A DNA stretch of 57,997 bases from a virus, in IMG/VR virus record IMGVR_UViG_3300020733_000018, positions 1 to 57,997 of that record. One strand, given 5' to 3'. The translations under genes were made by a program, and so were the position numbers. Below the pieces are notes generated by a model, which ran no database searches, had not been told where the DNA came from, and saw nothing but the letters and a program-made list of their open reading frames with translations. Shown here one piece after another: positions 14,280 through 46,623 of this stretch (positions within the stretch are counted from its first letter, which is position 1; the number at the start of each line of letters is the position of its first letter).

Positions 14280-16844
14280 TTATCTTGCTATTGGTGCGAT
14301 TGGCATTTTTTGGTTATTATATCCTGAGTTACCTTTACTTACCCCATCGGTTATACTGTTTATGTATGTTCCCAAAGTGTATCTACCAATCTTTTCTAAA
14401 TCGTTTATTGTTATTTCTTTACCGTCCTCAGATCTAACGGTTATTGTTCCGCTATGTTTTATTTCTCCAGAACTATTACCACTATTATTTGTTAATCCAG
14501 CTTGGTCAAATAAGACTCCAATATCACCTTTTCCACCTTTAAATACTCTTCCTCCTGGTGTCATTAATGCATCATTAGTTGGTTCTGGTAATGCATCATT
14601 AGTTGGTTCTGGTTTTGATGTTGCGAGACCGACAGCTCCGCCTATTCCAGCGCCTACGGCAGCTCCACCTTGCATAAGAGGTAATATTGTTCCTATTGTA
14701 GCTCCGCCTGAAAGAATTGCTCCACCAATACCAACAGCTAAACCAGCAGCTCCACCAATTATTGCACCAGTTTTTGCACCTTTTATTGTATCCCAAATAC
14801 TTTTTATTGATAAATCATCTTCATGTTCTTTTATATCACCAAGATATTTATTTTTTTCATCTGGGTTTACAACATTTTCAAAACCTTTTCTATTTTTATA
14901 ATTTTTATCAACATCCAATAATAATTTTTCACCCATTCTACTTATACTATCAAAACCTGTAGCTTTACCAATTGACATTAATAAATTACCCATAGCTTGC
15001 TCAAGATATGGTGCAATTAAATCCCATACACCCTTAAGTAATGCTACAATACCTTCTTTTATTTTATCCATAAAAGAAGCTTTACCAGAAAATATATCAA
15101 TTAATGTACTCGAAATACTTTTTACTTTTTCTATCACATCATTTAACATTTTACCCATTCTTCCACTATCCCCAAATAAATCCTTTATTTTCGGTATAAT
15201 AAAATTGATAAAATCATCCGTAAATTTACTTACTGTGTCTATGAAACCGCTATCTTCAAGTTTATTGAAAATTTCAGCAAACACCTGACTGAATGAATTA
15301 TAAATCCTTTCTAAAGGTATTTTTAATCTTTCCATGAAATTCAAACGATCTTGTGCTGCTTTTTCATCCTTTTTTCTTGATTCAATAATGCTTTCGAATT
15401 CGTCTTTGCTTGTTAATGATGTAAGTAATTTGTTTGCACCATCAGATGTTTTGATATAATATTGTTTATCCTTATCATTAAATGTTACTAAATTAGCTAA
15501 TGCTTGTTTGTCTTCATCAGAAAACATACCACTCATACCAGCTTTAGTTAACGCACCCATCTTATCAGCTAATTTAGCTTGTTCAAGCGCACCATTTTTA
15601 AGTTGTTCAAAATCCACTCCGAGATTTCCAGCAGCTTCTTTTAATAGTTTCATTTGTGCTGGTGGAATATAGAAAATACCTTGTGCGTTTTTAGTTGCAA
15701 GACCCTTAGTCATATCCATCAAGTCTTTCAATAATTCATCTGGAGAATTTTGTGCCTTAAACATTAACGTGAATGCATCACCAAATTTATCAGCAAATGA
15801 ACCACCTAATACTTGCATTTTTGCTGCCGCTTCTACAGCACCCTCTGGATCAAAAAATGCATCCGACATTTTTTCTGCAATACCAGTTAAATCCATTCTT
15901 AATTGTACAGCTTGTGTTGCTAATTTAGTCATATTTTCAAGGCCACTTTTCATAGCGAATCCTGTCAATCCGTTTACTAACGATGAATAACTATCGAGAA
16001 CTTTTTTACTATTTAACCCAAGTTTTGCCGCTTCATTTGTTGCTTTATTTGTTATATCATTAACTTTTTTGATACTGACACCAATATTACTGAATTGTGC
16101 AGCCAATTCTGTAGCACCATCTATACCTAACGCTGTTGACCTACCTATTTTTTCAATCAAGTCAACATCTTCTTTATCAAAAATTTTATTTTTACCTGTA
16201 GTATCACTAAAATTTTGCATCATGTTGGTGACATCTTCCATTGAACCACCATATTTTATAGCAACATCAGTAAGTTCAGTCATATTTAACAGAAGACCTT
16301 TGGATTCTGCCCTTGTTAAACCAATATCAGCTGCCATATTACCAACAGCTTTTTGCATGGCCATGTATCTATCAAAAGCTTGAGATAATATACTTTTAGC
16401 TAAAGACCATAAATTACCAAGAATACTATTAACCATTCCAGCTATAGAGCCAACAATATTTTTTGCCGCATCAAGAATACCTCCGAATATGTCTTTCAAA
16501 CCTCCCAAAATATCACCTGAAAATAATTTTGCAACACCTGTAAATGTACTTTTAAATAAACCACCAGTTGCCATTGCAACGCTTCTCATACCTCCTAATA
16601 GAATTGGACCAATACCAAGTGTAACTTTATTTAATGACTCGCCAAAAGAAGCTGCACTACCTTTTAACTGACTTGTTAATGTATTAGTACCTGTACTTAA
16701 ATCTGGTAACTTAATTTTACCCCTCTCACCATAGCTACCACCACCACCTTTTGATTTAGGCATTTTAGCTTCACCCTGTGTAACAAGTTTTTGTAATAAA
16801 TTTACAATATCATTACTTTTATCATTATTTGTATTGTCAGCCAT
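14280..16844 (-). CDS. tail tape measure protein (854 aa)
   Basis: Tape measure protein that sets tail length and fills the tube before DNA ejection. Support: position immediately after the tail chaperone pair, long helical Ala/Lys/Gly-rich sequence, several hydrophobic segments near residues 90-150 (GIGPILLGGM, IVGSIAGMVNSILGNL), and a glycine-rich membrane-type stretch around 690-745 (GAIIGGAAGLAVGIGGAIL). Near the C-terminus the peptide PEPTNDAL occurs twice. At 854 residues it is shorter than many contractile-tail tape measures; at roughly 0.15 nm per residue this would imply a tail of about 125-130 nm, an inference only. A terminator and then a TATTTATA motif precede it, so it probably has its own promoter. 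Confidence 0.85.
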   Translation of the reverse strand: MADNTNNDKSNDIVNLLQKLVTQGEAKMPKSKGGGGSYGERGKIKLPDLSTGTNTLTSQLKGSAASFGESLNKVTLGIGPILLGGMRSVAMATGGLFKSTFTGVAKLFSGDILGGLKDIFGGILDAAKNIVGSIAGMVNSILGNLWSLAKSILSQAFDRYMAMQKAVGNMAADIGLTRAESKGLLLNMTELTDVAIKYGGSMEDVTNMMQNFSDTTGKNKIFDKEDVDLIEKIGRSTALGIDGATELAAQFSNIGVSIKKVNDITNKATNEAAKLGLNSKKVLDSYSSLVNGLTGFAMKSGLENMTKLATQAVQLRMDLTGIAEKMSDAFFDPEGAVEAAAKMQVLGGSFADKFGDAFTLMFKAQNSPDELLKDLMDMTKGLATKNAQGIFYIPPAQMKLLKEAAGNLGVDFEQLKNGALEQAKLADKMGALTKAGMSGMFSDEDKQALANLVTFNDKDKQYYIKTSDGANKLLTSLTSKDEFESIIESRKKDEKAAQDRLNFMERLKIPLERIYNSFSQVFAEIFNKLEDSGFIDTVSKFTDDFINFIIPKIKDLFGDSGRMGKMLNDVIEKVKSISSTLIDIFSGKASFMDKIKEGIVALLKGVWDLIAPYLEQAMGNLLMSIGKATGFDSISRMGEKLLLDVDKNYKNRKGFENVVNPDEKNKYLGDIKEHEDDLSIKSIWDTIKGAKTGAIIGGAAGLAVGIGGAILSGGATIGTILPLMQGGAAVGAGIGGAVGLATSKPEPTNDALPEPTNDALMTPGGRVFKGGKGDIGVLFDQAGLTNNSGNSSGEIKHSGTITVRSEDGKEITINDLEKIGRYTLGTYINSITDGVSKGNSGYNNQKMPIAPIAR
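14566..14613 (-). repeat. 24-bp tandem repeat, two copies, in tape measure gene
   Basis: Two adjacent identical 24-base units (14566-14589 and 14590-14613) in the tape measure gene encode PEPTNDAL twice in the linker after the glycine-rich segment. This looks like a recent in-frame duplication. Confidence 0.8.
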
Positions 16845-16909: not shown

Positions 16910-17129
16910 AATTTGTATTTTTACTTGCTTGTTCAGCTCTTTCTTGTCTTTTTTCCGCTTCTGTAATAAGATGATCTAACATTATTTTTCTTTCATAAAC
17001 TGGCATTATCAATAAATCTGAATATGAAAATCTACCATGTTTTATCAAAAGATAAAACTCATAAATCATATCATACTTATACGTTGAGGTAGGGCCAAAG
17101 AAACTTGGTTGTGATGGGAAGTTCACCAA
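16908..17129 (-). CDS. tail chaperone frameshift extension (GT-type C-terminal part)
   Basis: A second open frame overlaps the end of the gp26-like gene and continues 170 bases past its stop. Its sensible part, from about LVNFPSQPSFFG through MIYEFYLLIKHGRFSYSDLL to IMPVYERKIMLDHLITEAEK, resembles the T half of G/GT tail chaperone pairs. A slip of -2 (or +1) at the T9 run (17136-17128) would fuse residues 1-237 of the upstream protein to 73 extra residues, giving about 310 in total. The frame also has an ATG (MIYEF) just after the upstream stop, so a separate short protein is possible, but the open, phage-like sequence before that ATG favours frameshifting. Gene order tube, chaperone, tape measure is the usual one. 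Confidence 0.65.
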   Translation of the reverse strand: MVNFPSQPSFFGPTSTYKYDMIYEFYLLIKHGRFSYSDLLIMPVYERKIMLDHLITEAEKRQERAEQASKNTN

Positions 17130-17838
17130 AAAAAAACTCACCACTCGGTGCTTCAACATTGATACGTGTATCAAGTCCTGGTTCATTGTCAACAATGAAT
17201 TTTCTTAGTTGGGAAGCTTCAATTGGCATCATATTGTTAACAAACTCAATTATTTGTTGTTTATCTCTAATACCATCAATCTCCATAACCTGAGCTTGCA
17301 ATCTCTTTGTTAAAAGTTCCGATACAGCATTCACACCCATTTTTTTTCTCTTAGCTTCATCTTCTTTAGCAATAATATCTTCTTCATCAGATGTTAAATA
17401 TCTATATTTTATAACTTTCTTAGTTTTTGGTAATTGGAAAGTTATTTCACCATTTTGGTCTGGCTCAACACTAATTTCTTTAGCTTGAAAAGTACTGATG
17501 TCAACTTCTGTTTCAAAATTTTCTTTGGTTTTTGGGTCTACCAATTCAACTGAATACATTTCACCATACCCAGTAGCTCTTAACCAAAATAAGATAGCAT
17601 TTCTGTCACAAGCAAGCATATCTTTAGGTCTCAAATCTTTATCCAATACTTTCTTATCCAATAACATATCCAATACTTTTCCAGATTGAATAAGATTTGG
17701 TGAAGTTAAAAGGTTTTCATCCGATGCTGTTAAATATGCAACTTTTACAGCAGCTTTTTTATTTTTGTAAAATAAACCACCTGAAGGTAAAGCAATTACA
17801 TCATGTGCTGGTTCGATAATTTGTTGAAAATCATTCAT
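17077..17838 (-). CDS. tail assembly chaperone / T4 gp26-like baseplate hub assembly protein
   Basis: A 253-residue protein with ALPSGGLFY near the N-terminus (about 17-25), an internal MLACDRNAILFWLRATGYG segment (about 94-112) and IKYRYLTSDEEDIIAKEDEA (about 153-172). This arrangement fits the T4 gp26 family of hub assembly proteins, which sits at the place of the lambda gpG-type chaperone. It probably binds the tape measure and recruits tube subunits. Near the 3' end nine Ts encode Phe-Phe-Phe, a likely slip site into the frame that ends at 16908. The start overlaps the end of the small GIY-YIG gene by 4 bases. Confidence 0.72.
   Translation of the reverse strand: MNDFQQIIEPAHDVIALPSGGLFYKNKKAAVKVAYLTASDENLLTSPNLIQSGKVLDMLLDKKVLDKDLRPKDMLACDRNAILFWLRATGYGEMYSVELVDPKTKENFETEVDISTFQAKEISVEPDQNGEITFQLPKTKKVIKYRYLTSDEEDIIAKEDEAKRKKMGVNAVSELLTKRLQAQVMEIDGIRDKQQIIEFVNNMMPIEASQLRKFIVDNEPGLDTRINVEAPSGEFFFGELPITTKFLWPYLNV
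17128..17136 (-). other. T9 slippery run, probable frameshift or polymerase slip site
   Basis: Nine consecutive Ts on the coding strand, read as three Phe codons between GAG and GGT. Moving back two bases (or forward one) enters the second frame, which stays open to 16910. The same run could also act by transcriptional slippage. Confidence 0.6.
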
Positions 17839-19966: not shown

Positions 19967-22900
19967 TTACAAATTTTCAAATGAAACACTTGTTGGAGTT
20001 ACATCAAACTCAAGTTCAATAAACTCTAATGCATCAATTGGTTTCAAGAATATTTTACCTGTTAAGGTATTTCTATCTGTATCAGAAGCTGGATCCAATT
20101 TGATTCTAAAATCACTTAGACCTCTTTCTTTTCTAATATTATCCAATATTGGATTAACTAATGATAAGAATTGTGTTCTTACAATATCGTCATTTGGATC
20201 GAATAATAATCTATTAGAAACAGATATAATAAGTTTTCTTGCTTGAAGTAATAATCTTCTGATATTCAATCTGTTAAGAGCTGAATCTCTTTCTTGTAAG
20301 TTTCTATTACCCCAAATTACTGTACCAACATCAGAGAAGGTTGCTATTGGGTTAACTCTTGAAGGATAAAGAATATCTCTTGCGTCTTGGTCAAGAACAA
20401 TTCTTGTTCTTTTACAGTTAACTAAACCTCTATTATAACCTGCGGTAGCAAACCAAGGGAATGCAACGTTATCGGTATAAGCTAAGTTTCTTACTACTTC
20501 AAGAGTAGGTGGTAACCATAGGTAAGCATTGTTTTCAACGTCAGCTATTTGTAACCAAGGATAGAAAAGAGCTGTATAGTTTGAATCTAAGTTCAAATTA
20601 TCCATCATATCAGAGATATCATTAGGGAACATCCATTGAGTTGTATCTGCTGGATTTGTATTGTTATATACAGATATATCTGGTATTGTTGCGATATAGA
20701 TTGAATCTAATCTTTTCTCTTCAACTATTGTTATTACCTCTTGTGCTAATTCATTGTTATTTACAACATCAATACCTGGAGTTACTAATACATTTATATT
20801 AGTTTTTTCTGGGTTTTGGAATGTTTTATAACCATATAGGTAAGCATAGTAATCCGAAGAACCCCAAGTTTCGTCATATTCAGCATTAGTGAATGAAGCA
20901 AAATGTCCATTAACAAAGCTTGATTGTCCAATTCTGTATAAATCACCATTAGTTCTTGTATCTCTATAGAAATCCCAACCATCAAATCCTCCAGACATAA
21001 GCGCTGTGAATTTTCTTGTTTTGATATCGTAATATGTTTGAGTTGTATCTGTAGCTAAAAGTACTGGGTCAGTGAATTGTCCATCTCCAACAGCATATAA
21101 AGAAGTATCAGCATTTACGTCAAGGTGGAAACCTTTTGTCATACCACCCCAAGGGTTACCTGTATTATATGTAATTGTACCAATATTTTCAGCACCAATG
21201 AATGATGTTATATCAGCGTCAAAACCATAATCATAGTCACTGAAACCTAAGTAAGTTTTTCTAACTTTATCTCCAGAAGATATCAAAGTAGTTCCCAAAG
21301 GATTAGTTTGCCATACATCACCAGGTTGATAATACTTAGTTTTGTATGCAATTTCTGGTATAGCCACATCAGAATATGTTCTGAAAGAATAACCTTCGAA
21401 ACCAGCTGGAACAGCATCAGAAGGTGCGTTTGGATCAACATCAATTATGATATATGAACTATTTAATGTATATTTGTTATCAAGTGTACCAACTAATCTT
21501 CCGATAAAGTTAGAACTTGCTTCATCCATTGTACAATTCAAGTATCTTTCGAATATAACAGGCACAGCATCAGTATCAGAGAACGATCTAACCAAAAGGT
21601 CAAATGTACCCTTAGCAAGATCTACGTTTGCAATAGAAACCTTAATTTCAGTATTTGCATGATTACCATCAGATATAGAAACCACTCTGAATAGATTTTG
21701 TGCTTTTCCACCTCTTAACTCGGAAACAAAGAACGGAGTAGAAGGGGCTTGGTATTGGAACATAAAGTTATTCCAACCACCTGCACCAGCTGGGATATAT
21801 TTCAATTCAGGATGAAGTCCTTTTATTTTACCATTTAACCAACCTTTTGCAAGTGTTGAATCATATGTTTCTTCAACATACATTTCAGTAGTTTTATCGG
21901 TATTTGTAACACCAAGTACGTTTTTGATATAATTTCTTTTTGTTTCATCCAAAGAAAGATTATATGTGAATGTAGTACTTGTTGTAGTTTTACCTGTTAT
22001 TGTAATGTCAGCATAAGGATTTGATTCAGCGCTAACAATACTACCATATCCTACAGTTGAACCACTAACTAAAAAGTCTAATGTATCATTCACATAAAGA
22101 CCTTTTCCTCTAATTGTAGAAACCAACATATTATGATATTCTGCATATGGATCAGCAGCATATGATGTAACGTATATTTTAACTTTACCAAAGATTGATG
22201 TACCGTTTTCATATACATGGTCTGTTGTCATTATGAATGAAACACCACTATATGTTTCAGTCATAGTATCGTATACAAACGTATCATTTATAAAGTAAGC
22301 ATCTTCATCGCTTGAAGGTACAGTTGATGGATAAACATAAGAATCAACAGTAGATGGTGCATTATTCACATACGTAGAAGTATTACCACCAGTCGTTTTA
22401 GCTGCATTTGTTACAGTTGTAACTGTTGCTGAAGGGTTAACACCCCATTTCATTATATCGTGCTTCCAATAGTTACCTGTAGTACCTGTAGCAGTAGTGT
22501 ATTTTGCAAAGTAATTGTTATAAGCATTCACAATCAGTGATGAGTCAATACCTACCAAACTTGCTATATTTGCAAGAACTGATGTTGATGTTCCTGTTAC
22601 ATTATAAACAGTATCAGTTGTTGTACCTGAGAAACCAAAAGTATAAGATGTTGTTGTAGGTACCATTGTGGTTTGATCAACCGCACCGAGCGTTCTAATT
22701 GCCCAAGCATCTCCTTTATCGTAACCAGATAAACCAAGAATACGAGTTACGTACAATTGGTTTGATTGACTCAAATAATTTTTTGCTATATATGAAAGTT
22801 CATATTTAACAATTTGGGTATTTCTAAATTTTTCAGGATTAATTCCACCAAAAACCTTAGAAAATTGGTCATAATTTGCAATAGGAATTGGCTGAAATGC

Positions 22901-23020
22901 TGGGCCTTTTACGGTTTCGCCAGCCGCACCTAAAGTCGTTATACCAATCGTCTCAATGCTGTATGTTAAATCTTTCTCTGAAGTGTAAACACCAGGTGAC
23001 GCATAAACTATATTTGCCAT
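19967..23020 (-). CDS. tail sheath protein, T4 gp18-like (1017 aa)
   Basis: Contractile tail sheath subunit. The N-terminus has the family pattern SPGVYTSEKDLTYSIETIG followed by LGAAGETVKGPAFQPIPI and FSKVFGG. The C-terminal quarter carries the conserved sheath domain: AYLWLPPTLEVVRNLAYTDN, FPWFATAGYNRGLV, LDQDARDILYPSRVNPIATF, then NLQERDSALNRLNIRRLLL. T4 gp18 has 659 residues, so the central part holds several hundred extra Thr/Ser/Gly/Asn-rich residues, most likely surface domains. Upstream is a one-mismatch late promoter motif; downstream is the GGACC palindrome cluster. Confidence 0.95.
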   Translation of the reverse strand: MANIVYASPGVYTSEKDLTYSIETIGITTLGAAGETVKGPAFQPIPIANYDQFSKVFGGINPEKFRNTQIVKYELSYIAKNYLSQSNQLYVTRILGLSGYDKGDAWAIRTLGAVDQTTMVPTTTSYTFGFSGTTTDTVYNVTGTSTSVLANIASLVGIDSSLIVNAYNNYFAKYTTATGTTGNYWKHDIMKWGVNPSATVTTVTNAAKTTGGNTSTYVNNAPSTVDSYVYPSTVPSSDEDAYFINDTFVYDTMTETYSGVSFIMTTDHVYENGTSIFGKVKIYVTSYAADPYAEYHNMLVSTIRGKGLYVNDTLDFLVSGSTVGYGSIVSAESNPYADITITGKTTTSTTFTYNLSLDETKRNYIKNVLGVTNTDKTTEMYVEETYDSTLAKGWLNGKIKGLHPELKYIPAGAGGWNNFMFQYQAPSTPFFVSELRGGKAQNLFRVVSISDGNHANTEIKVSIANVDLAKGTFDLLVRSFSDTDAVPVIFERYLNCTMDEASSNFIGRLVGTLDNKYTLNSSYIIIDVDPNAPSDAVPAGFEGYSFRTYSDVAIPEIAYKTKYYQPGDVWQTNPLGTTLISSGDKVRKTYLGFSDYDYGFDADITSFIGAENIGTITYNTGNPWGGMTKGFHLDVNADTSLYAVGDGQFTDPVLLATDTTQTYYDIKTRKFTALMSGGFDGWDFYRDTRTNGDLYRIGQSSFVNGHFASFTNAEYDETWGSSDYYAYLYGYKTFQNPEKTNINVLVTPGIDVVNNNELAQEVITIVEEKRLDSIYIATIPDISVYNNTNPADTTQWMFPNDISDMMDNLNLDSNYTALFYPWLQIADVENNAYLWLPPTLEVVRNLAYTDNVAFPWFATAGYNRGLVNCKRTRIVLDQDARDILYPSRVNPIATFSDVGTVIWGNRNLQERDSALNRLNIRRLLLQARKLIISVSNRLLFDPNDDIVRTQFLSLVNPILDNIRKERGLSDFRIKLDPASDTDRNTLTGKIFLKPIDALEFIELEFDVTPTSVSFENL

Positions 23021-25128: not shown

Positions 25129-25629
25129 ATGTTAGATTTAAAAAAATTATCCGATATTATTGAATATCTGGAATTAATACCAGGTTATAACGATTGTATT
25201 TTGAATAAAACATGTTATAGAATTGGTGAATTTTGGTCATTAACCTATGATTTTGAAAAGTTTAGAAAAAAACTGAACGCAAATTGGGATGAAAACGAAG
25301 TTTTAAACTACATATATAAAAATTATAATTATAAAGATAATTTTTTTGTTAAAATTATAGAAAACCCAACCAGAAAGAAAATTGCTAAATATGATAATAA
25401 AATGCTTTTTTGCGATGGTTTAGATGAAGCACTTATTGGTGTTAGATTTGGTTTTGATGAAAATAAAAATATAGCGGTTTATGATTACGATAGATGTATA
25501 GATTCTATCTTAGCTGAATCGGACGGAGAAATGGAAGAATGTGATGCTATAGAACATATGGAATATAATGTTACTGGTGCATATGTTGGTGAATACACTC
25601 CATGTTTTTTAACAAATATTGATGAATAA
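25129..25629 (+). CDS. conserved phage protein of unknown function (166 aa)
   Basis: The start is taken at ATG 25129 (MLDLKKLSDIIEYLEL), not at the further-upstream ATG, because the extra upstream 33 residues would be a hydrophobic run over the promoter and over the opposite gene. The C-terminal part, YDYDRCIDSILAESDG and then EHMEYNVTGAYVGEYTPCF, looks like a conserved phage domain, but I cannot name it or give a function. Its stop overlaps the ATG of the helicase gene by 8 bases, so the two are probably translated together, from the promoter at 25064-25095. Confidence 0.7.
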   Translation: MLDLKKLSDIIEYLELIPGYNDCILNKTCYRIGEFWSLTYDFEKFRKKLNANWDENEVLNYIYKNYNYKDNFFVKIIENPTRKKIAKYDNKMLFCDGLDEALIGVRFGFDENKNIAVYDYDRCIDSILAESDGEMEECDAIEHMEYNVTGAYVGEYTPCFLTNIDE

Positions 25630-28513
25630 TATACCAATTGAAATACAAGCTAAAGAAATTCTAATAAATTACCAAGGATCCAATGATTATTTACTGGAAA
25701 TAAAAGGTTATTTATTAAGCAAAAAAGCGTTTCCGTTAACTTCAAATATATGTAAATACATAATATCTAATCAGAAAGTAAAACCTATTGTTTTGAATAA
25801 AAAATATGTTTTACATAAAAGTATTAGAGGTTTTTTAAAAAGCCAATATAAATTAGATTTTATACCTGAAGAAATTTTTATTAATAAATTATTAACACGA
25901 AAAGTCGATAACCTTCACCTTTGGGCTTGTTTTAATCAAGATTGTAAATACTATTTTTCAGTTTATTTGGATAAAAATTGTATCAAAAATAGTAAAACTA
26001 TTGAATTACCTTCTTTTGATCAGTATGATAGGCCGCCAAAAAAACACCAATTAACAGCAATCAAAACTTTATTGGAAAATGATAAATTTATCTTGGCTGA
26101 TGATATGGGTTTGGGTAAAATGGAATTTGTTGATAACCAATTGTTTACACCATTTGGTAGGAAAAGAATTGGTGATATAATTGTCGGTGATAAAGTTATT
26201 GGTTCAGATGGTAAACCATATAATGTTGTTGGTGTTTTTCCACAAGGTAATAAAGAATTATTTAAGGTAACCTTTAATGATGGTTATTCTATTTTAGTCG
26301 GTGGTGAACACCTTTGGTCTGTTTCAACTAATTGTAATGGTGAAAATAATAAAAATAGAAAAAATAGATATATTACATTAAGTACAAATCAAATGCTTGA
26401 TAAAAATTTGATTTTACAACAAAATGGTTCGGATTGGAATGAAAAAAGACCCTACAAATACTCAACATACTATAAAAAAAATAATGGCGCATCTAAATGG
26501 CAGATACCTATCGTTAAACCTATAGAATTTTACAATAATTATGAATTACCTATTGAACCATATTTATTAGGTGTTTGTTTGGGTGATGGTAACATAAAAA
26601 ATTCATCAGTAAAATTTGAGATACATAAAGATGATTTTGAAGAATTATTTACAGGTGTTGAATTTAATGAATTATCACCTGTTGGCAATAGACGATCATG
26701 TAATTTAAACTTCGGTAATAAATTACAATTATTAAATATTAATAATAAAACTTCAGATACTAAATTTATACCAGATAAATATAAATATAGTTCAATAGTT
26801 AATAGAATTGCGATTTTGCAAGGTTTGATGGATACTGATGGTCATTGCATGAAATCAAAAAAAGGTTTGTTTGCTGGTACGGAATACGCTACGGTATCTG
26901 AAAAATTAGCTGACGATATTGCTGAGATAGTTCATAGTTTGGGTGGTATTGTGCGTAAAAAAAGTAAAATTGGTTCCTATAGAAAGCCAGATGGAACTAA
27001 GGTTATTTGTAAAAAATGTTATCGTTTAAATATAAAGATGCCTACAGGTATTAATCCTTTTAGATTAAAACGTAAAGCTATATTATATAAAGAACCTGAA
27101 AAATATAAAGTTGGTAGATATATTAAGGATATCCAACCTTGTGGTACTGGTGAAGCTGTTTGTATATCAGTAGATAGTCCAGATAAATTATATGTTACAG
27201 AACACGCAATTGTAACACATAATACAACATCTACCATTCTTGCTGCGATAACTGGTGGATATAAAAGGATTTTGGTTGTCTGCCCAGCATCTCTTAAATT
27301 GAACTGGAAAAAAGAAATAAGTTTGTATGATAACCCAAACGATATTAGTATTGTAGAAGGTTCTGATTTTACATTCAAAAAATGGACTATTGTAAACTAT
27401 GATATCCTTAAAAACTTCCATAATTTGAAAGAAAAAGGTCAAGATCCAGAAGATGTAAAAGAATCAATAATCGATTTTTATAAATTTGATTTAGTTATAG
27501 CTGATGAAGCACATTACCTTAAAAATGCTACCGCAAATAGAACAAAATTATTTAATGATTTTGCGATGAAAATTGGTACCAGATGGTTACTAACTGGTAC
27601 ACCAATAACTAATAAACCAATTGATTTATATAATTTATTATATCTTTGTGAATCCCCACTTAGTACAAATTGGGTTGGGTATGTTAGGCGTTATTGTGCT
27701 GGTAGACAATTCAAAAGAAAAGGGTCAACACAAAAATATTGGGTAACTGATGGTGCAACAAATCTTGAAGAATTAAAAGAATTTACAGACGATTTGATCC
27801 TTAGAAGGCTTAAAAAAGATGCTGTTGATTTACCACAAAAGACAATAAAACCAATATATTTACCATTATCCTCTTCAAGAAGATATCAGGATTATATGGA
27901 AGAATATCAAAATTGGTATGATGAACAAGTAGAAAATGGGATTGAACCTAAACCAACAGAACATCTTACACAATTGATAAAGGTTAGACAATTACTATCT
28001 GAAGACAAATTAAGTACAACAATCAATCTTGTAGAAGATATAATTGAAAGTGGTAGAAAAGTTATTATTTTTTCATGTTTTTCTAATAGTATTAGAACAA
28101 TTCATGACCATTTTGGTAAAAAGTCTGTTTTAATTGATGGTGCTGTAAGCGCTAAAAATAGAGATATTGCCGTTGAAAAGTTTCAAAACGATGATAAAAT
28201 CAAAGTTTTTTGTGGTAACATTGTTGCGGCAGGTGTTGGTTTAACTTTAACTGAAGGTTCTGTGGTGATATTCAACGATGTTGATTGGACACCAGCAAAT
28301 CACTTACAAGCTGGTGATCGTGCACATAGAATGGGACAAACGAATGAAGTACACATAATTTATCCTTTAATAGATGGTACTTTAGATACGGTTATGTACA
28401 ACAAACTACAGGAGAAAATTAAAAATATTAGTACTGTAATGGGAGATGAAAATAATGATATTTTCAATGATACATCTATGATTTCTGATGTTATAAAGTC
28501 TTTAAAAGATTAG
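25622..28513 (+). CDS. SNF2-family DNA helicase/ATPase interrupted by an intein (963 aa precursor)
   Basis: Superfamily 2, SNF2-type DNA translocase. Residues 1-166 and 535-963 form the extein (595 aa after splicing). Motif I is split: LADDMGLGK (to residue 166) continues as TTSTILAAITGG after the intein. Further motifs are ILVVCPASLKLNWKKE (Ia), DEAHYLKN (DEAH at 628-631), RWLLTGTPITNKPIDLYNLL (III), and a second RecA domain with KVIIFSCFSNS, NIVAAGVGLTLTEGS and AGDRAHRMGQ (V and VI). The role in the phage is probably replication, recombination or fork remodelling. The start is ATG 25622, one codon after an in-frame TTG. The stop overlaps that of the opposite gene by 4 bases. Confidence 0.92.
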   Translation: MNNIPIEIQAKEILINYQGSNDYLLEIKGYLLSKKAFPLTSNICKYIISNQKVKPIVLNKKYVLHKSIRGFLKSQYKLDFIPEEIFINKLLTRKVDNLHLWACFNQDCKYYFSVYLDKNCIKNSKTIELPSFDQYDRPPKKHQLTAIKTLLENDKFILADDMGLGKMEFVDNQLFTPFGRKRIGDIIVGDKVIGSDGKPYNVVGVFPQGNKELFKVTFNDGYSILVGGEHLWSVSTNCNGENNKNRKNRYITLSTNQMLDKNLILQQNGSDWNEKRPYKYSTYYKKNNGASKWQIPIVKPIEFYNNYELPIEPYLLGVCLGDGNIKNSSVKFEIHKDDFEELFTGVEFNELSPVGNRRSCNLNFGNKLQLLNINNKTSDTKFIPDKYKYSSIVNRIAILQGLMDTDGHCMKSKKGLFAGTEYATVSEKLADDIAEIVHSLGGIVRKKSKIGSYRKPDGTKVICKKCYRLNIKMPTGINPFRLKRKAILYKEPEKYKVGRYIKDIQPCGTGEAVCISVDSPDKLYVTEHAIVTHNTTSTILAAITGGYKRILVVCPASLKLNWKKEISLYDNPNDISIVEGSDFTFKKWTIVNYDILKNFHNLKEKGQDPEDVKESIIDFYKFDLVIADEAHYLKNATANRTKLFNDFAMKIGTRWLLTGTPITNKPIDLYNLLYLCESPLSTNWVGYVRRYCAGRQFKRKGSTQKYWVTDGATNLEELKEFTDDLILRRLKKDAVDLPQKTIKPIYLPLSSSRRYQDYMEEYQNWYDEQVENGIEPKPTEHLTQLIKVRQLLSEDKLSTTINLVEDIIESGRKVIIFSCFSNSIRTIHDHFGKKSVLIDGAVSAKNRDIAVEKFQNDDKIKVFCGNIVAAGVGLTLTEGSVVIFNDVDWTPANHLQAGDRAHRMGQTNEVHIIYPLIDGTLDTVMYNKLQEKIKNISTVMGDENNDIFNDTSMISDVIKSLKD
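26120..27223 (+). mobile_element. class 3-type intein with LAGLIDADG endonuclease (368 aa)
   Basis: In-frame protein insertion in the Walker A loop. Intein residue 1 is Met, not Cys/Ser/Ala; the end is VTHN followed by Thr of the extein. Splicing blocks: RIGDIIVGDKVIGSDG (block A region), GGEHLWSV with Trp66, VCISVD with Cys348 and THN with Thr366-His367-Asn368. The W-C-T set and a non-nucleophile first residue define class 3 inteins, in which the block F Cys starts splicing. A LAGLIDADG homing endonuclease sits between, with LLGVCLGDG (about 149-157) and LQGLMDTDG (about 233-241); both acidic residues are kept, so it may be active. Confidence 0.9.
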
Positions 28514-33360: not shown

Positions 33361-36300
33361 ATGAGTGAATATAGTATCCCAATGGAGTCTGTGGAAAAGT
33401 TTCTTTCTGGTCATGGTGAAGAGAAATATATTGTAAATATTGAATATGAATCTGACACAAATACAATATATAAAATCAAAGATATACCAGAACAAGGGAT
33501 TGTTATTGAGAAAGAATTCTTAAAATCTTTCATGTGGATTAAAAACCTTAATGAAGTTAAAAAGATTTGCAACTTTTATCATAACAACGATCTTACCATT
33601 AAACTCAAAATGAAGGAGTATGGCATCCAAATTAAAAAGCTAAGACACGATGACCACCCAAGATTAGTGAATGGTTACACATATTTAGTTACATGTGAAC
33701 AAGGACACAAAAGAATGCTATCATTTTTTGCTGATGGTGGTATAAATTTCTACAACAAGTTTGAAAAGAGAATTAATTTAAAGGAATATTTTACAATATT
33801 ATCCCCAATTGAACAGTATTTTATCAGTACTGGTAATCGTTTATATAAAGGTATTGAAGATTATAATGAGTTGACAAAACTTATTTTTGACTTGGAAACA
33901 ACAGGCTTGGATCCAAATATAGAAAAAATATTTTTGATTGGTTGTAAAACTAATAAAGGATATGAAAAATTGATTGAAATCGACATAAACGACCCTGAAT
34001 CTGAAAAAAATGGGATTATACAATTCTTCAATGAAATCGATGCAATAAAACCAACTATCATTGGTGGTTACAATAGTGCAAACTTTGACTGGTATTTCAT
34101 ATTCAAAAGATGTCAAATTCTTGGTATTGATATTGAAAATATCGCAAAGACTCTGAAAAAAGATAAACAAATATACGTTACTGAACAAATACTAAAACTT
34201 GGTAACGAGGTTGAAAGATATATCCAAACAAATATGTTCGGATATAGTATTATCGATATTAACCACTCAACCAGAAGAGCACAAGCTATTGATTCTGATA
34301 TGAAATTTACCAGATTGAAATATGTTTGTAAATATAATGATGTTGCTAAATCAAATCGTGTATACATCGTTGGTGAAAATATTGGAAAATATTGGAAAAG
34401 CGACAAGAAATATTATTTTGATGATAAAAGTGGTTCATATTCTGAAATTAAACCAAAAGTTGAGTATATGGATTTTATCACGAGACAGATTGTTAAAGAT
34501 AATCCAGACAAAATATTTATTTTCGGTGATAATGATCTAAGAGAAGGTTTTGGTGGTCAGGCCAAAGAAATGAGAAACGAAAAAAACTCTATTGGTATTG
34601 TCACAAAAAAAGCGCCAGGTACAACTGATGATTGTTATTATAATGATGATGAGTTTGAATTAAATAAAAAGAAAATAAATCTCGACCTAAAAATTATAAT
34701 TAACGAAATAAAGAAAGGTAAATGTATTGTTATACCTTCTTCTGGTATTGGTACAGGTTTAGCTAAATTACAGGAAAAAGCTCCAAAAACCTTCAAATTT
34801 TTACAAAATTCTTTAAACTTATTAAAGGTTTATTGTGATAGTTTTGTAGAATGTGATGGTAAATATATTGTTAACAGATACTTGATGGATGACCTTTGGG
34901 AAACACTCGAAGTTGATAATATTTACAATCAATCATCATTTATGTTGGCTAAATTAATACCAACAAGTTATCAAAGAGTATCTACAATGGGTACTGCTGG
35001 ACTATGGAAAATGTTGATGTTAACATGGTCTTATGAAAATGATTTAGCAATTCCAATAAATGATGAAAAACGAGATTTCGTTGGTGGATTATCAAGACTG
35101 TTTAAAGTTGGTTTTTCTAAGAAATTAAGAAAGATGGACTATTCATCTCTTTATCCTTCTATACAGCTTGCACATGAGGTGTTCCCATCTTGTGATATAA
35201 CACATGTAATGAAATCTTTACTTAAATATTTTCACTCTGAACGTTTTAAAGCAAAGAATCTCGCTAAGAAATACGGTAAAGCTGGTGATAAACAAATGAA
35301 AAGTTTTTATGACCGTAAACAATTACCTCTGAAAATATTCATCAACTCAATGTTCGGTGCCCTTGGAGCACCAACAGCATTTAACTGGGCTGAAATGGAT
35401 GTTGCTGAAGGTATTACTGCGAGAGCAAGACAATACTTAAGGATAATGGTTAAATTTTTTATGGCTAAAGGTTATGAACCATTAGTACTTGATACGGATG
35501 GTGTTAACTTTATGGCACCAGAATCTGGAGAGGAAAATTTTAGATACATTGGTCTGGGTAATAATGAAGCTGTAATTAAAGATAAAGAATACACAGGAGT
35601 TGATGCAGTGATTGCTGAATTTAATGATTTATTCATGAAAGGTGAAATGGCATTAAGTTTGGATGGTACATGGCCGTCAACCATAAATCTTGCTCGTAAA
35701 AACTATGCCTTACTTGAAGATAGTGGTAAAGTAAAATTGACTGGTAATAGTATCAAATCTAAAAAAATGCCAGCCTATATTGAAGAATTTTTGGATAAAG
35801 CCTTGGTTTTACTATTAAATGAAAAAGGTTCTGAATTTGTTAACTACTACAATACCTACGTTCAAAAAATATATAATAAAGAAATTCCACTTTCAAAAAT
35901 TGCAACAAAAGCAAGAGTTAAAAAAACTTTAGAAGATTATAAAAATCGTGGGCTTAACAAGAACGGTAAACCATTACCAAAGCAAGCTCATATGGAATTA
36001 GCCATAATCAATAAATTAAATATTAATCTTGGAGATACTTTATATTACGTTAATAATGGTACAAAATTAACTCAAGGCGATATTCAAACAGTAAAAGTTA
36101 CAAAAAAAGGTTGGTCAGAAAAAGATATAGAAGATCATATAACTCATTATGGTAAATCACCAGTGGGTCTAACATCGATAAATAAATTAAATTGTTATAT
36201 GTTAGATAGCAAAGAATTGGAAGATAAACCAGATATGTTAGGTGAGTACAATGTAGCAAAATATTTGGATGCTTTCAACAAGAGAATCAAACCGCTTTTA

Positions 36301-36567
36301 GTTGTCTTTAGTGAAGATATTAGAGCTGGTTTACTATTAAAAAACCCTTCAGATAAAAAGGATTATTTAAAAAATGAGTTGAAGCTAATCAATGGTATAC
36401 CATATAAAGAGGCTGACCAAGATACTATACAAGATTTATTTACACCATCGGAACTTGAAAATGTTTACTGGAAAAAAATGAATTATAATCCAAATTTCTG
36501 GTTTAATGATAAAATAAACTTTACTGTTCCAGGGTTAGATAGGGTGGTTGAGATAGAAAATATATAA
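33361..36567 (+). CDS. family B DNA polymerase with an extra domain in the exonuclease region (1068 aa)
   Basis: Replicative DNA polymerase with proofreading. Exo I is FDLETTG (Asp177, Glu179), Exo II GGYNSANFDW (Asn238, Asp243), Exo III YLMDD near residues 507-511. Polymerase motif A is MDYSSLYPSIQ (Asp593), motif B KIFINSMFGALGAP (Lys658), motif C VLDTDGVNF (Asp711, Asp713). T4 gp43 is 898 residues; most of the excess is an inserted segment at about residues 363-490 containing IFIFGDNDLREGFGGQA and CIVIPSSGIGTGLAKLQEKAP, a domain otherwise found as a separate small phage or plasmid protein. A host-type promoter precedes the gene. Confidence 0.95.
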   Translation: MSEYSIPMESVEKFLSGHGEEKYIVNIEYESDTNTIYKIKDIPEQGIVIEKEFLKSFMWIKNLNEVKKICNFYHNNDLTIKLKMKEYGIQIKKLRHDDHPRLVNGYTYLVTCEQGHKRMLSFFADGGINFYNKFEKRINLKEYFTILSPIEQYFISTGNRLYKGIEDYNELTKLIFDLETTGLDPNIEKIFLIGCKTNKGYEKLIEIDINDPESEKNGIIQFFNEIDAIKPTIIGGYNSANFDWYFIFKRCQILGIDIENIAKTLKKDKQIYVTEQILKLGNEVERYIQTNMFGYSIIDINHSTRRAQAIDSDMKFTRLKYVCKYNDVAKSNRVYIVGENIGKYWKSDKKYYFDDKSGSYSEIKPKVEYMDFITRQIVKDNPDKIFIFGDNDLREGFGGQAKEMRNEKNSIGIVTKKAPGTTDDCYYNDDEFELNKKKINLDLKIIINEIKKGKCIVIPSSGIGTGLAKLQEKAPKTFKFLQNSLNLLKVYCDSFVECDGKYIVNRYLMDDLWETLEVDNIYNQSSFMLAKLIPTSYQRVSTMGTAGLWKMLMLTWSYENDLAIPINDEKRDFVGGLSRLFKVGFSKKLRKMDYSSLYPSIQLAHEVFPSCDITHVMKSLLKYFHSERFKAKNLAKKYGKAGDKQMKSFYDRKQLPLKIFINSMFGALGAPTAFNWAEMDVAEGITARARQYLRIMVKFFMAKGYEPLVLDTDGVNFMAPESGEENFRYIGLGNNEAVIKDKEYTGVDAVIAEFNDLFMKGEMALSLDGTWPSTINLARKNYALLEDSGKVKLTGNSIKSKKMPAYIEEFLDKALVLLLNEKGSEFVNYYNTYVQKIYNKEIPLSKIATKARVKKTLEDYKNRGLNKNGKPLPKQAHMELAIINKLNINLGDTLYYVNNGTKLTQGDIQTVKVTKKGWSEKDIEDHITHYGKSPVGLTSINKLNCYMLDSKELEDKPDMLGEYNVAKYLDAFNKRIKPLLVVFSEDIRAGLLLKNPSDKKDYLKNELKLINGIPYKEADQDTIQDLFTPSELENVYWKKMNYNPNFWFNDKINFTVPGLDRVVEIENI

Positions 36568-39561: not shown

Positions 39562-40788
39562 ATGAGTACGTATAAAATATTAGTTGCCCCTGGCGATAAT
39601 GCTGGATCTGGTAAATATAGATGTGTAGACCCACATATTAAATTACAAGAATTATTTCCGAATGATTTTTTCGTAGAAATAAATAACGCTGTTGATTTCA
39701 GTGATTTCACATATTTGAAACAATTTAGCGCTGTGTTTATACACAGGGTTCCCCAACACAATTATAAAGATGCTATCAACATCATTACCAATTTAAAAAA
39801 ACTTGGCATAAAAGTTATTATTGATATTGATGACTATTGGCATCTTGACCCTTCTCACGGTTTGTATGAACAAGTGAAAAGAGAGGGTATTCCACAAATA
39901 TCTATAAACTGTTTAAAATTAGCTGATTTGGTTGTTGTACCAACAAGTATATTAGCTAACGAAGTTAAACAATTCAACCAGAATGTTGTTGTCTTAGCCA
40001 ATGCTTTAGATCCAACAGAGGAACAATTCAAAAGTAAACCATCAGAAAGTGAGAAATTAAGAATTGGTTGGTTAGGTGGTAGCTCACATATCAAGGATTT
40101 AGAATTAATAAAAGGTATATCATCAATTGGTGAATACAATAATAAATCACAAATTGTTTTATGTGGTTTTGATACAAGAGGTAGCGTAAGGCAAATCGAC
40201 CCTCAAACAGGTCAAGTACAAGAAAGACAAATGAATCCAACAGAAACTGTTTGGTTCATGTACGAGTTATTCATGACAGATAATTATCGTATGTTAGAGT
40301 CATATCCTGATTATGTAAAATTCCTTGTACAATTTAAAGAGGATAAATCTTTTGATGATTCCAATATGCCTTATAGAAGAGTTTGGACTAAATCCATCAA
40401 CCAATATGCTAAGAACTATAATCTTTTTGATGTATCATTAGCTCCACTTGTAGATAATAAATTCAACTTATATAAATCTCAACTTAAAGTTATTGAAGCT
40501 GGATTCCATAAGAAAGCAATTATTGCTCAAAATTACGGCCCTTATACTATCGATTTAGTAAGTGCAATAAAATCAGGTGGTGAAATAGACCCTAATGGTA
40601 ATTGTTTACTTGTTGACCCATCTAAAAATCATAAACAGTGGCAAAAATATGTTAAGAAGTTAATCGATAACCCACAAATGGTTAAAGATCTTGGTGAAAA
40701 ATTATATGAAACCGTAAAAGATAAATACAACCTTAATAATGTTACTAAAACAAGAGGTGAAATATATTTAAATTTATTAAATAAATAA
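39562..40788 (+). CDS. GT4-like glycosyltransferase (408 aa)
   Basis: Glycosyltransferase with the two-Rossmann (GT-B) layout. Features: N-terminal APGDNAGSGKYRCVDPH, an acceptor-side region with IDIDDYWHLDP, LKLADLVVVPTSILANEVKQFNQNVVVLANALDP marking the domain boundary (about 126-156), RIGWLGGSSHIKDLELI, and a donor-site region LAPLVDNKFNLYKSQLKVIEAGFHKKAIIAQNYGPY with Glu in the helix (E/EX7E type). Cytoplasmic, presumably NDP-sugar dependent; donor and acceptor unknown. It starts the mixed glycan block after the terminator, with a 52-base leader in which I see no clear promoter. Confidence 0.8.
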   Translation: MSTYKILVAPGDNAGSGKYRCVDPHIKLQELFPNDFFVEINNAVDFSDFTYLKQFSAVFIHRVPQHNYKDAINIITNLKKLGIKVIIDIDDYWHLDPSHGLYEQVKREGIPQISINCLKLADLVVVPTSILANEVKQFNQNVVVLANALDPTEEQFKSKPSESEKLRIGWLGGSSHIKDLELIKGISSIGEYNNKSQIVLCGFDTRGSVRQIDPQTGQVQERQMNPTETVWFMYELFMTDNYRMLESYPDYVKFLVQFKEDKSFDDSNMPYRRVWTKSINQYAKNYNLFDVSLAPLVDNKFNLYKSQLKVIEAGFHKKAIIAQNYGPYTIDLVSAIKSGGEIDPNGNCLLVDPSKNHKQWQKYVKKLIDNPQMVKDLGEKLYETVKDKYNLNNVTKTRGEIYLNLLNK

Positions 40789-45780: not shown

Positions 45781-46623
45781 ATGAATAAAGTAAAAATTAT
45801 AGCCGAAATAGGACTTAATCACAATGGGGATATAGATATCGCCAAACAACTTATAATGGTTGCTAAAGCTGCTGGTTGTGATTATGTTAAATTTCAAAAA
45901 AGAAATCCTGATGTTTGTGTACCTGAAGATCAAAAATCTAAAATAAGGCAAACACCTTGGGGTGAGATGACCTATATTGATTATAGATGGAGAGTTGAGT
46001 TTAATCAAGAACAATATCAACAAATACATAATTTTTGTCAAAGTATTGGAATTAAATGGTTCGCTTCAGTTTGGGACAAAGATTCGGTTGATTTTATACA
46101 AAAGATCAACTTGGATAATAACTATCATAGTATAATGAAAATACCATCAGCTCTTATAACCGATACCGAATTATGCAAATACGCATCAACAAGATGTAAT
46201 CAATTACTGATTTCTACAGGAATGAGCACCGAAGAAGAAATTGAAAATTGTGTACGTACTTGTAATCCAGATGTTATAATGCATACAAATTCAACATATC
46301 CCTGTCCTGTTGAGGAATTAAACTTAAACTATATTTTATGGTTGAAGAATAAATATAGAGATAAAGAAATAGGGTATAGTGGCCATGAATATGGTTTAGT
46401 TACAACATTTGCAACAATACCTATGGGAGCTACTTGGATCGAAAGACACATAACGCTTGACCGTAATATGTGGGGTTCAGACCAATCATCATCAATCGAG
46501 CCATCTGGGGTTTTTAAATTGGTTAAGGGGATAAGAGATATTGAAAAATCTTTGTCCTTTGCACCAAGTGAAAGATATGTATTAGGAGGAGAGTTGCAAA
46601 AAAAACAAACGCTTAGAAAATAA
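45781..46623 (+). CDS. neuB: N-acetylneuraminate-type synthase (280 aa, no SAF domain)
   Basis: Condenses phosphoenolpyruvate with an acylaminohexose to give a sialic-acid-like sugar. NeuB marks: KIIAEIGLNHNGDIDIAKQL (5-24), DYVKFQKRNPD, FASVWDKDSVDF, MKIPSALITDTELC, LISTGMSTEEEIENC, GYSGHEYGL, and GATWIERHITLDRNMWGSDQ with catalytic-type Glu/His/Asp. Typical NeuB is about 340-350 residues with a C-terminal antifreeze-like SAF domain; this one ends after the TIM barrel, so the SAF domain is missing and would have to be dispensable or provided elsewhere. Confidence 0.9.
   Translation: MNKVKIIAEIGLNHNGDIDIAKQLIMVAKAAGCDYVKFQKRNPDVCVPEDQKSKIRQTPWGEMTYIDYRWRVEFNQEQYQQIHNFCQSIGIKWFASVWDKDSVDFIQKINLDNNYHSIMKIPSALITDTELCKYASTRCNQLLISTGMSTEEEIENCVRTCNPDVIMHTNSTYPCPVEELNLNYILWLKNKYRDKEIGYSGHEYGLVTTFATIPMGATWIERHITLDRNMWGSDQSSSIEPSGVFKLVKGIRDIEKSLSFAPSERYVLGGELQKKQTLRK

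Follow-up and report, generated by a model that had tools for sequence, protein, structure and literature searches.

A DUF7831 domain inserted once between Exo II and Exo III in the family-B DNA polymerase of a jumbo-phage clade

The DNA analysed here, called the window below, is the complete 57,997-nucleotide stretch of the IMG/VR virus record IMGVR_UViG_3300020733_000018. Its DNA polymerase carries a long segment between the Exo II and Exo III motifs, and the locus raises the question of whether this segment is an ordinary part of the exonuclease fold or a foreign domain, and what such a domain would do there. To our knowledge, whole foreign enzyme-like domains, inteins aside, are rarely accepted by replicative polymerases. 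The polymerase and its motifs are located as follows.

33361..36567, plus strand: open reading frame of a family-B DNA polymerase (PolB), 1068 aa, whose 3'-5' exonuclease domain holds an inserted domain (Pfam, AF2 model)
33889..33897, plus strand: Exo I, D177-x-E179, invariant in 53 PolBs
34072..34089, plus strand: Exo II, N238-SAN-F242-D243, with N238, F242 and D243 invariant in 53 PolBs
34408..34443, plus strand: pre-insert segment, strand 350-353 and predicted strand residues near 360-361 (AF2 DSSP, alignment)
34459..34812, plus strand: DUF7831 insert (PF25176 / PHROG 2072), residues 367-484 (Pfam, AF2)
34879..34893, plus strand: Exo III, Y507-xxx-D511, 3' of the insert, invariant in 53 PolBs
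35137..35157, plus strand: palm motif A, D593-YSSLYP-599, with D593, S596, L597, Y598 and P599 invariant in 53 PolBs
35491..35499, plus strand: palm motif C, D711-T-D713, invariant in 53 PolBs

The open reading frame matches DNA_pol_B (1.9e-12), DNA_pol_B_exo1 (1e-7) and RNase_H_2 (5.5e-8) in Pfam, and the AF2 model of the whole protein (pLDDT 86, pTM 0.75) matches the KOD, 9N and RB69 polymerase structures with VIA Z-scores of 22-26. A profile comparison with T4 gp43, meant to locate the insert with respect to the T4/RB69 strand-separating hairpin, aligned only the palm. An initial annotation of this DNA had stated that the polymerase and exonuclease catalytic residues remain intact, and D177/E179, D243, Y507/D511, D593 and D711/D713 are indeed invariant across 53 relatives.

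The segment, which lies downstream of Exo II (N238..F242-D243) and upstream of Exo III (Y507..D511), is a DUF7831 domain. The Pfam match spans residues 368-483 and profile positions 2-117 of 118, with an E-value of 1.8e-42 for the whole protein and 4.2e-44 when the segment is searched alone; the score is 149.6 bits, where the Pfam gathering cut-off is 27 bits. PHROG 2072 covers the same region. The limits of 363-490 proposed earlier were right within a few residues, the actual ones (about 367-484) being slightly tighter, and both motifs quoted at that time are found in the segment, IFIFGDNDLREGFGGQA at residues 385-401 and IPSSGIGTGLAKLQ at residues 458-471 of the polymerase. A sequence search of the insert against the PDB gave nothing credible (best E 0.37). 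Searches of the PDB and the literature returned no DUF7831 protein with a known activity or a solved structure, and no paper naming DUF7831 or phrog_2072 was found in the searchable literature.

Modelled alone by AF2 with 66 relatives, the insert folds with a pLDDT of 95.6 and a pTM of 0.88, and its secondary structure is unchanged inside the model of the whole polymerase. BFVD models of DUF7831 match the insert model with E-values to 3.5e-14. The extra domain between Exo II and Exo III is thus borne out both by the DUF7831 match and by the independent fold. Since the entry and exit of the insert are close in sequence, the exonuclease fold can close around it. With an insert that folds alone and with the catalytic residues kept, the enzyme should still copy and proofread, judging from the motifs and the model.

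An intein was considered and rejected, as the segment gives only DUF7831 in Pfam at E < 0.1, with no Hint or homing-endonuclease match; the same Pfam search does detect Hint/LAGLIDADG in another open reading frame of the window.

Several other features of the window were observed. A SNF2-type helicase open reading frame (25619-28513, plus strand) is interrupted by an intein directly behind the Walker A lysine (GLGK^MEF...VTHN^T). The intein starts with Met, not Cys, Ser or Ala; its block B contains a Trp, a Cys lies close to block F and the +1 residue is Thr, features that resemble those of a class-3 (WCT) intein. The 484-kb uncultured phage LR756508 aligns in one piece across the helicase-intein region. 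On the minus strand, matches to a tail sheath (19967-23020), a baseplate hub (17077-17838) and, weakly, a tape measure (14280-16844) mark the window phage as a contractile-tail myovirus. A NeuB-family sialic-acid-type synthase (45781-46623, plus strand) and a glycosyltransferase (39562-40788, plus strand) suggest a surface-sugar module.

To compare the polymerase with its relatives, we searched IMG/VR with the PolB core and widened the set by using the insert and the PolB alignment as further queries. Among the 86 polymerases obtained, 23 (window included) have the insert and 63 do not. A 24th carrier, L032, has a frameshifted open reading frame and was omitted from the tree. Non-carriers run from residue 363 to residue 486 (window numbering) with a short linker only, and the pre-insert segment is common to carriers and non-carriers in the alignment. 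Between conserved anchors, carriers have 141-157 residues where non-carriers have a median of 26; the net difference of about 115 aa is the size of one DUF7831 domain. On a tree of the 86 polymerases with the insert columns removed, the carriers form one clade with an SH-aLRT support of 100. Their distribution needs one change on this tree, where shuffled labels need about 20. This shows that DUF7831 was inserted once, in the ancestor of the clade, and has since been inherited vertically. Contigs reach 309 kb in non-carriers and 321 kb in carriers, so both are jumbo-type phages. In the 320,934-base contig of L032, the insert-carrying polymerase frame stops at residue 797 with an apparent frameshift near the palm/thumb, which may be genuine or due to a sequencing error.

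The same tree bears on the possibility that the segment belongs to the normal make-up of this polymerase family and that some relatives have lost it. The insert is indeed present throughout the immediate clade, and no carrier has lost it. However, the segment is missing from 63 of the 86 related polymerases, including all sampled sister lineages, and about 98 records of other kinds of phage have DUF7831 as a free-standing protein, which makes an ancestral subdomain highly improbable. The initial annotation would have been contradicted by a segment that is ordinary in all relatives; most relatives lack it. Still harder to credit is an assembly or annotation artefact that fused two genes, for which we found no supporting point. 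Over 20 contigs, assembled from different metagenomes and as divergent as 60% identity, have the same junction with an open frame, which excludes chance and mis-assembly, and the segment is under purifying selection throughout. Both explanations were rejected, the artefact on the recurrent junction and the ancestral subdomain on the 63 of 86 relatives without the segment.

We next turn to what kind of domain was inserted. Its putative pocket is built from the following elements.

34525..34533, plus strand: invariant G389-D390-N391 at the end of strand 2, first putative pocket loop (66 DUF7831 sequences)
34552..34575, plus strand: glycine-rich loop GGQAKEMR, residues 398-405, with G399, A401 and R405 invariant (66-sequence alignment)
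34744..34758, plus strand: second glycine loop GIGTG, residues 462-466, after strand 4, with G464 and G466 invariant (alignment, AF2)

Twelve positions are invariant in the 66 DUF7831 sequences (window numbering: G389, D390, N391, G396, G399, A401, R405, G412, P419, G464, G466, P475). Strands are predicted at residues 384-391, 410-416 and 455-459, and strand 4 lies at A2 96-100 in the isolated AF2 model. According to the alignment and the model, nearly all invariant residues are located where strands 2, 3 and 4 end or shortly beyond, and there the conserved set reads GDN..GxGGQA..R, T-K..P and GxGTG. The strand-end side is the usual side for a nucleotide-type pocket in an alpha/beta domain. 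In the model the invariant residues cluster like a putative ligand pocket, for which the position is given by the alignment and the ligand would be of the nucleotide type.

The earlier description of the insert as macro-domain-like is not established by the comparisons. The top of the VIA list for the insert is formed by two ADP-ribose-bound macro domains, 3gqo (Z 5.6, rmsd 3.8, 113 aligned) and 3ewp (Z 5.2), with unrelated folds following at Z 4 to 5, and a Z below 8 may reflect a common arrangement. The other searches did not point to macro domains: a Pfam search of the segment up to E 1 has no Macro (PF01661) hit, Foldseek found no PDB structure for the insert at E 0.001, and hhalign against 31 bacterial Macro domains gave a score of 14.6 and a probability of 0.4%, within the range of 20 column-shuffled control profiles (7.6-19.6). 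Because the profile comparison is at the level of the shuffled controls and the structural scores are weak, we do not file the insert as a macro domain, though it may be one.

DUF7831 is found in many other contexts. The initial annotation had noted a likeness to a small free-standing phage or plasmid protein, and free-standing copies of about 130-220 residues, annotated as hypothetical, are present in about 98 INPHARED records, with DUF7831 also on 8 plasmids. The domain is found in giant viruses (Tupanvirus, Hyperionvirus, Yasminevirus) and in a few bacterial contigs, and PF25176 is rare in one bacterial genome set (2/150). Around free-standing copies in six phages the neighbours are mixed early genes (dCMP deaminase, exonucleases, rIIA/rIIB, helicase, metallophosphatase), with nothing pointing to ADP-ribose and no clear function. 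Neither a second DUF7831 copy nor a switch between the free-standing and the inserted form was found in the window record or in the contigs of 27 relatives.

DUF7831 is also located inside very large multidomain phage or bacterial proteins, beside other domains. The same protein contains a cpYpsA SLOG domain in L073 (4.5e-29), a YpsA SLOG domain in L112 (2e-6) and a DUF488-N3a domain in L108 (1.6e-7). Weaker signals are a DUF4326 in L062 and a NADAR in L088 (0.004, below the cut-off). Giant proteins with DUF7831 beside SLOG, DUF4326-like and NADAR-like segments were observed in L062, L066, L074, L073, L053, L088 and L112. According to the accessible text of Iyer, Burroughs and colleagues (PMC9503650), SLOG, Macro, NADAR and DUF4326 domains are similarly fused in a viral NAD/ADP-ribose network, are predicted to process or sense ADP-ribose derivatives, and include SLOG fusions to exonuclease, helicase and kinase domains. 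Given the SLOG and DUF488/DUF4326-type partners, the most likely ligand of DUF7831 would be a nucleotide, NAD or an ADP-ribose derivative. The ligand binding proposed in the initial annotation thus agrees by inference with the pocket anatomy and the fusion partners, while the relation to Macro that it implied has no counterpart in the profiles. Nucleotide-type ligand handling is our best guess for the insert, and one towards which we lean.

To examine how the insert has evolved within the carriers, we compared omega in close pairs, disregarding pairs with saturated dS. The insert has an omega of about 0.03-0.2 in the usable pairs and is thus under purifying selection, generally weaker than that on the flanks, where omega is 0.01-0.06 in most pairs; the insert is in general the less constrained and faster-evolving part. 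The pair of the window and L028 gives an insert omega of 0.49, from very few changes.

In 18 of the 23 carriers the GDN and GGQA-type motifs are essentially retained through deep divergence, their inserts being 54-68% identical to that of the window, although L034 has AGQA, and L039/L063 keep GDN and GGQA with PGSG in place of GIGTG. The other five are eroded and fall in two sets, L121/L122/L127 and L125/L126, where GDN is changed to SDN, SEN or DEN, GGQA to GEQS, GEES or GQQS (G399/A401 altered), and GTG to GND, GAD, GTD or GNG, with the rest of the domain retained in frame. On the insert tree supported branches split the two sets, which forces at least two losses on that tree; the polymerase tree favours two losses and is compatible with one as well. 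The same pocket residues thus seem to have disappeared independently in two sub-lineages. Loss of these residues in a domain kept in frame under purifying selection argues that the pocket chemistry would be dispensable for replication. A side observation is that L039/L063 group with L125/L126 by the insert and weakly with L042 and its kin by the polymerase, a conflict that may be due to recombination of the insert.

The erosion also fits a purely structural or neutral domain and counts to that extent against a ligand role. The insert might be a passenger that is tolerated in a surface loop, is hard to excise precisely and only needs to fold, any ligand binding being a leftover. Such a passenger would explain why most close pairs show the insert evolving faster (omega up to 0.2) than its flanks (0.01-0.06), why the GDN, GGQA and GTG residues could be lost in two sub-lineages that keep the domain, and why no carrier has lost the domain itself. 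However, a pure passenger is expected to lose its pocket residues first and everywhere, and the 18 carriers with essentially intact motifs, in spite of the low identity of their inserts, do not follow this expectation. We regard the passenger as unlikely, but as the rival to be taken most seriously.

Our preferred explanation, in which we have moderate confidence, is one in-frame insertion of a nucleotide-type ligand-handling DUF7831 domain with an auxiliary role at the replication fork. In the ancestor of a large-genome myophage clade, a free-standing phage DUF7831 product entered an exonuclease-domain loop of the replicative PolB by one in-frame insertion, and it has been inherited vertically since. 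The exonuclease fold would close around the independently folding insert, and the catalytic residues of both exonuclease and polymerase are kept. The replicase-borne module would then bind or clear its ligand, most likely a nucleotide, NAD or ADP-ribose derivative, at the fork, with a benefit against some hosts only. Such an auxiliary, host-dependent role fits the repeated loss of pocket residues with the body of the domain kept.

A more specific version is that the insert is an ADP-ribose eraser or reader, with which the replicase would pass or remove ADP-ribose put on phage DNA by DarT-type enzymes of the host. DarTG ADP-ribosylates DNA and thereby blocks phage, and mutations in phage polymerases can overcome it (PMC11348598, PMC10684548, PMC11481870). 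The fusion partners of DUF7831 are members of the ADP-ribose network, ADP-ribose-bound macro domains top the weak structural list, and the 320-kb carrier contig L032 also encodes NADAR. Of 12 phage contigs searched, however, one has a NADAR and none a Macro domain, which, like the mixed neighbours of the free-standing copies, weighs against the preferred explanation. Against the eraser or reader stand the missing profile relation to Macro and a structural Z below the level that separates a real fold match from a common arrangement, and we consider an eraser or reader quite improbable. We are just as doubtful about the wider proposal that an ADP-ribose or NAD-derivative module in the proofreading domain counters host DNA ADP-ribosylation or NAD-based defence, with pocket mutations switching it off where the defence is absent.

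Although DUF7831 and PolB are each known, we found no prior report of their combination in the searchable literature, and the accessible text of a jumbo-phage survey (PMC7824862) mentions no polymerase fusion. Across a diverse clade of phages the single insertion is retained in all sampled carriers; polymerases with a naturally empty site allow a comparison, and those with a naturally eroded pocket can serve as controls. DUF7831, present in many phages, some plasmids and giant viruses and with no function assigned, becomes testable here in a place where the link to replication is already given, and the locus is relevant to how phages shield their replication from host defences based on nucleotides.

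Compared with known systems, the insert shares with Macro domains an alpha/beta architecture of about 120 aa with two glycine loops, one following strand 2 and the other late in the domain, but the core of its model has four strands of three or more residues where the Macro fold is six-stranded. As in the viral NAD/ADP-ribose network, DUF7831 is found in giant phage proteins of the same kind, beside cpYpsA/YpsA SLOG and DUF488-type domains; the accessible text of PMC9503650 describes no DNA polymerase fusion of such domains, whereas the DUF7831 of the window sits in a DNA polymerase. Relative to large-phage and archaeal/T4-type polymerases (KOD, 9N, RB69 gp43), the window enzyme has the same exonuclease and palm motifs and the same overall fold, with an additional domain (about 118 aa) that separates Exo II from Exo III. 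Within its own family, the window copy matches the profile over its full length and shares the same invariant residues with 65 relatives. However, the members known so far either stand alone as small proteins or belong to giant multidomain (polyvalent-type) proteins, while the window copy is located inside a replicative polymerase.
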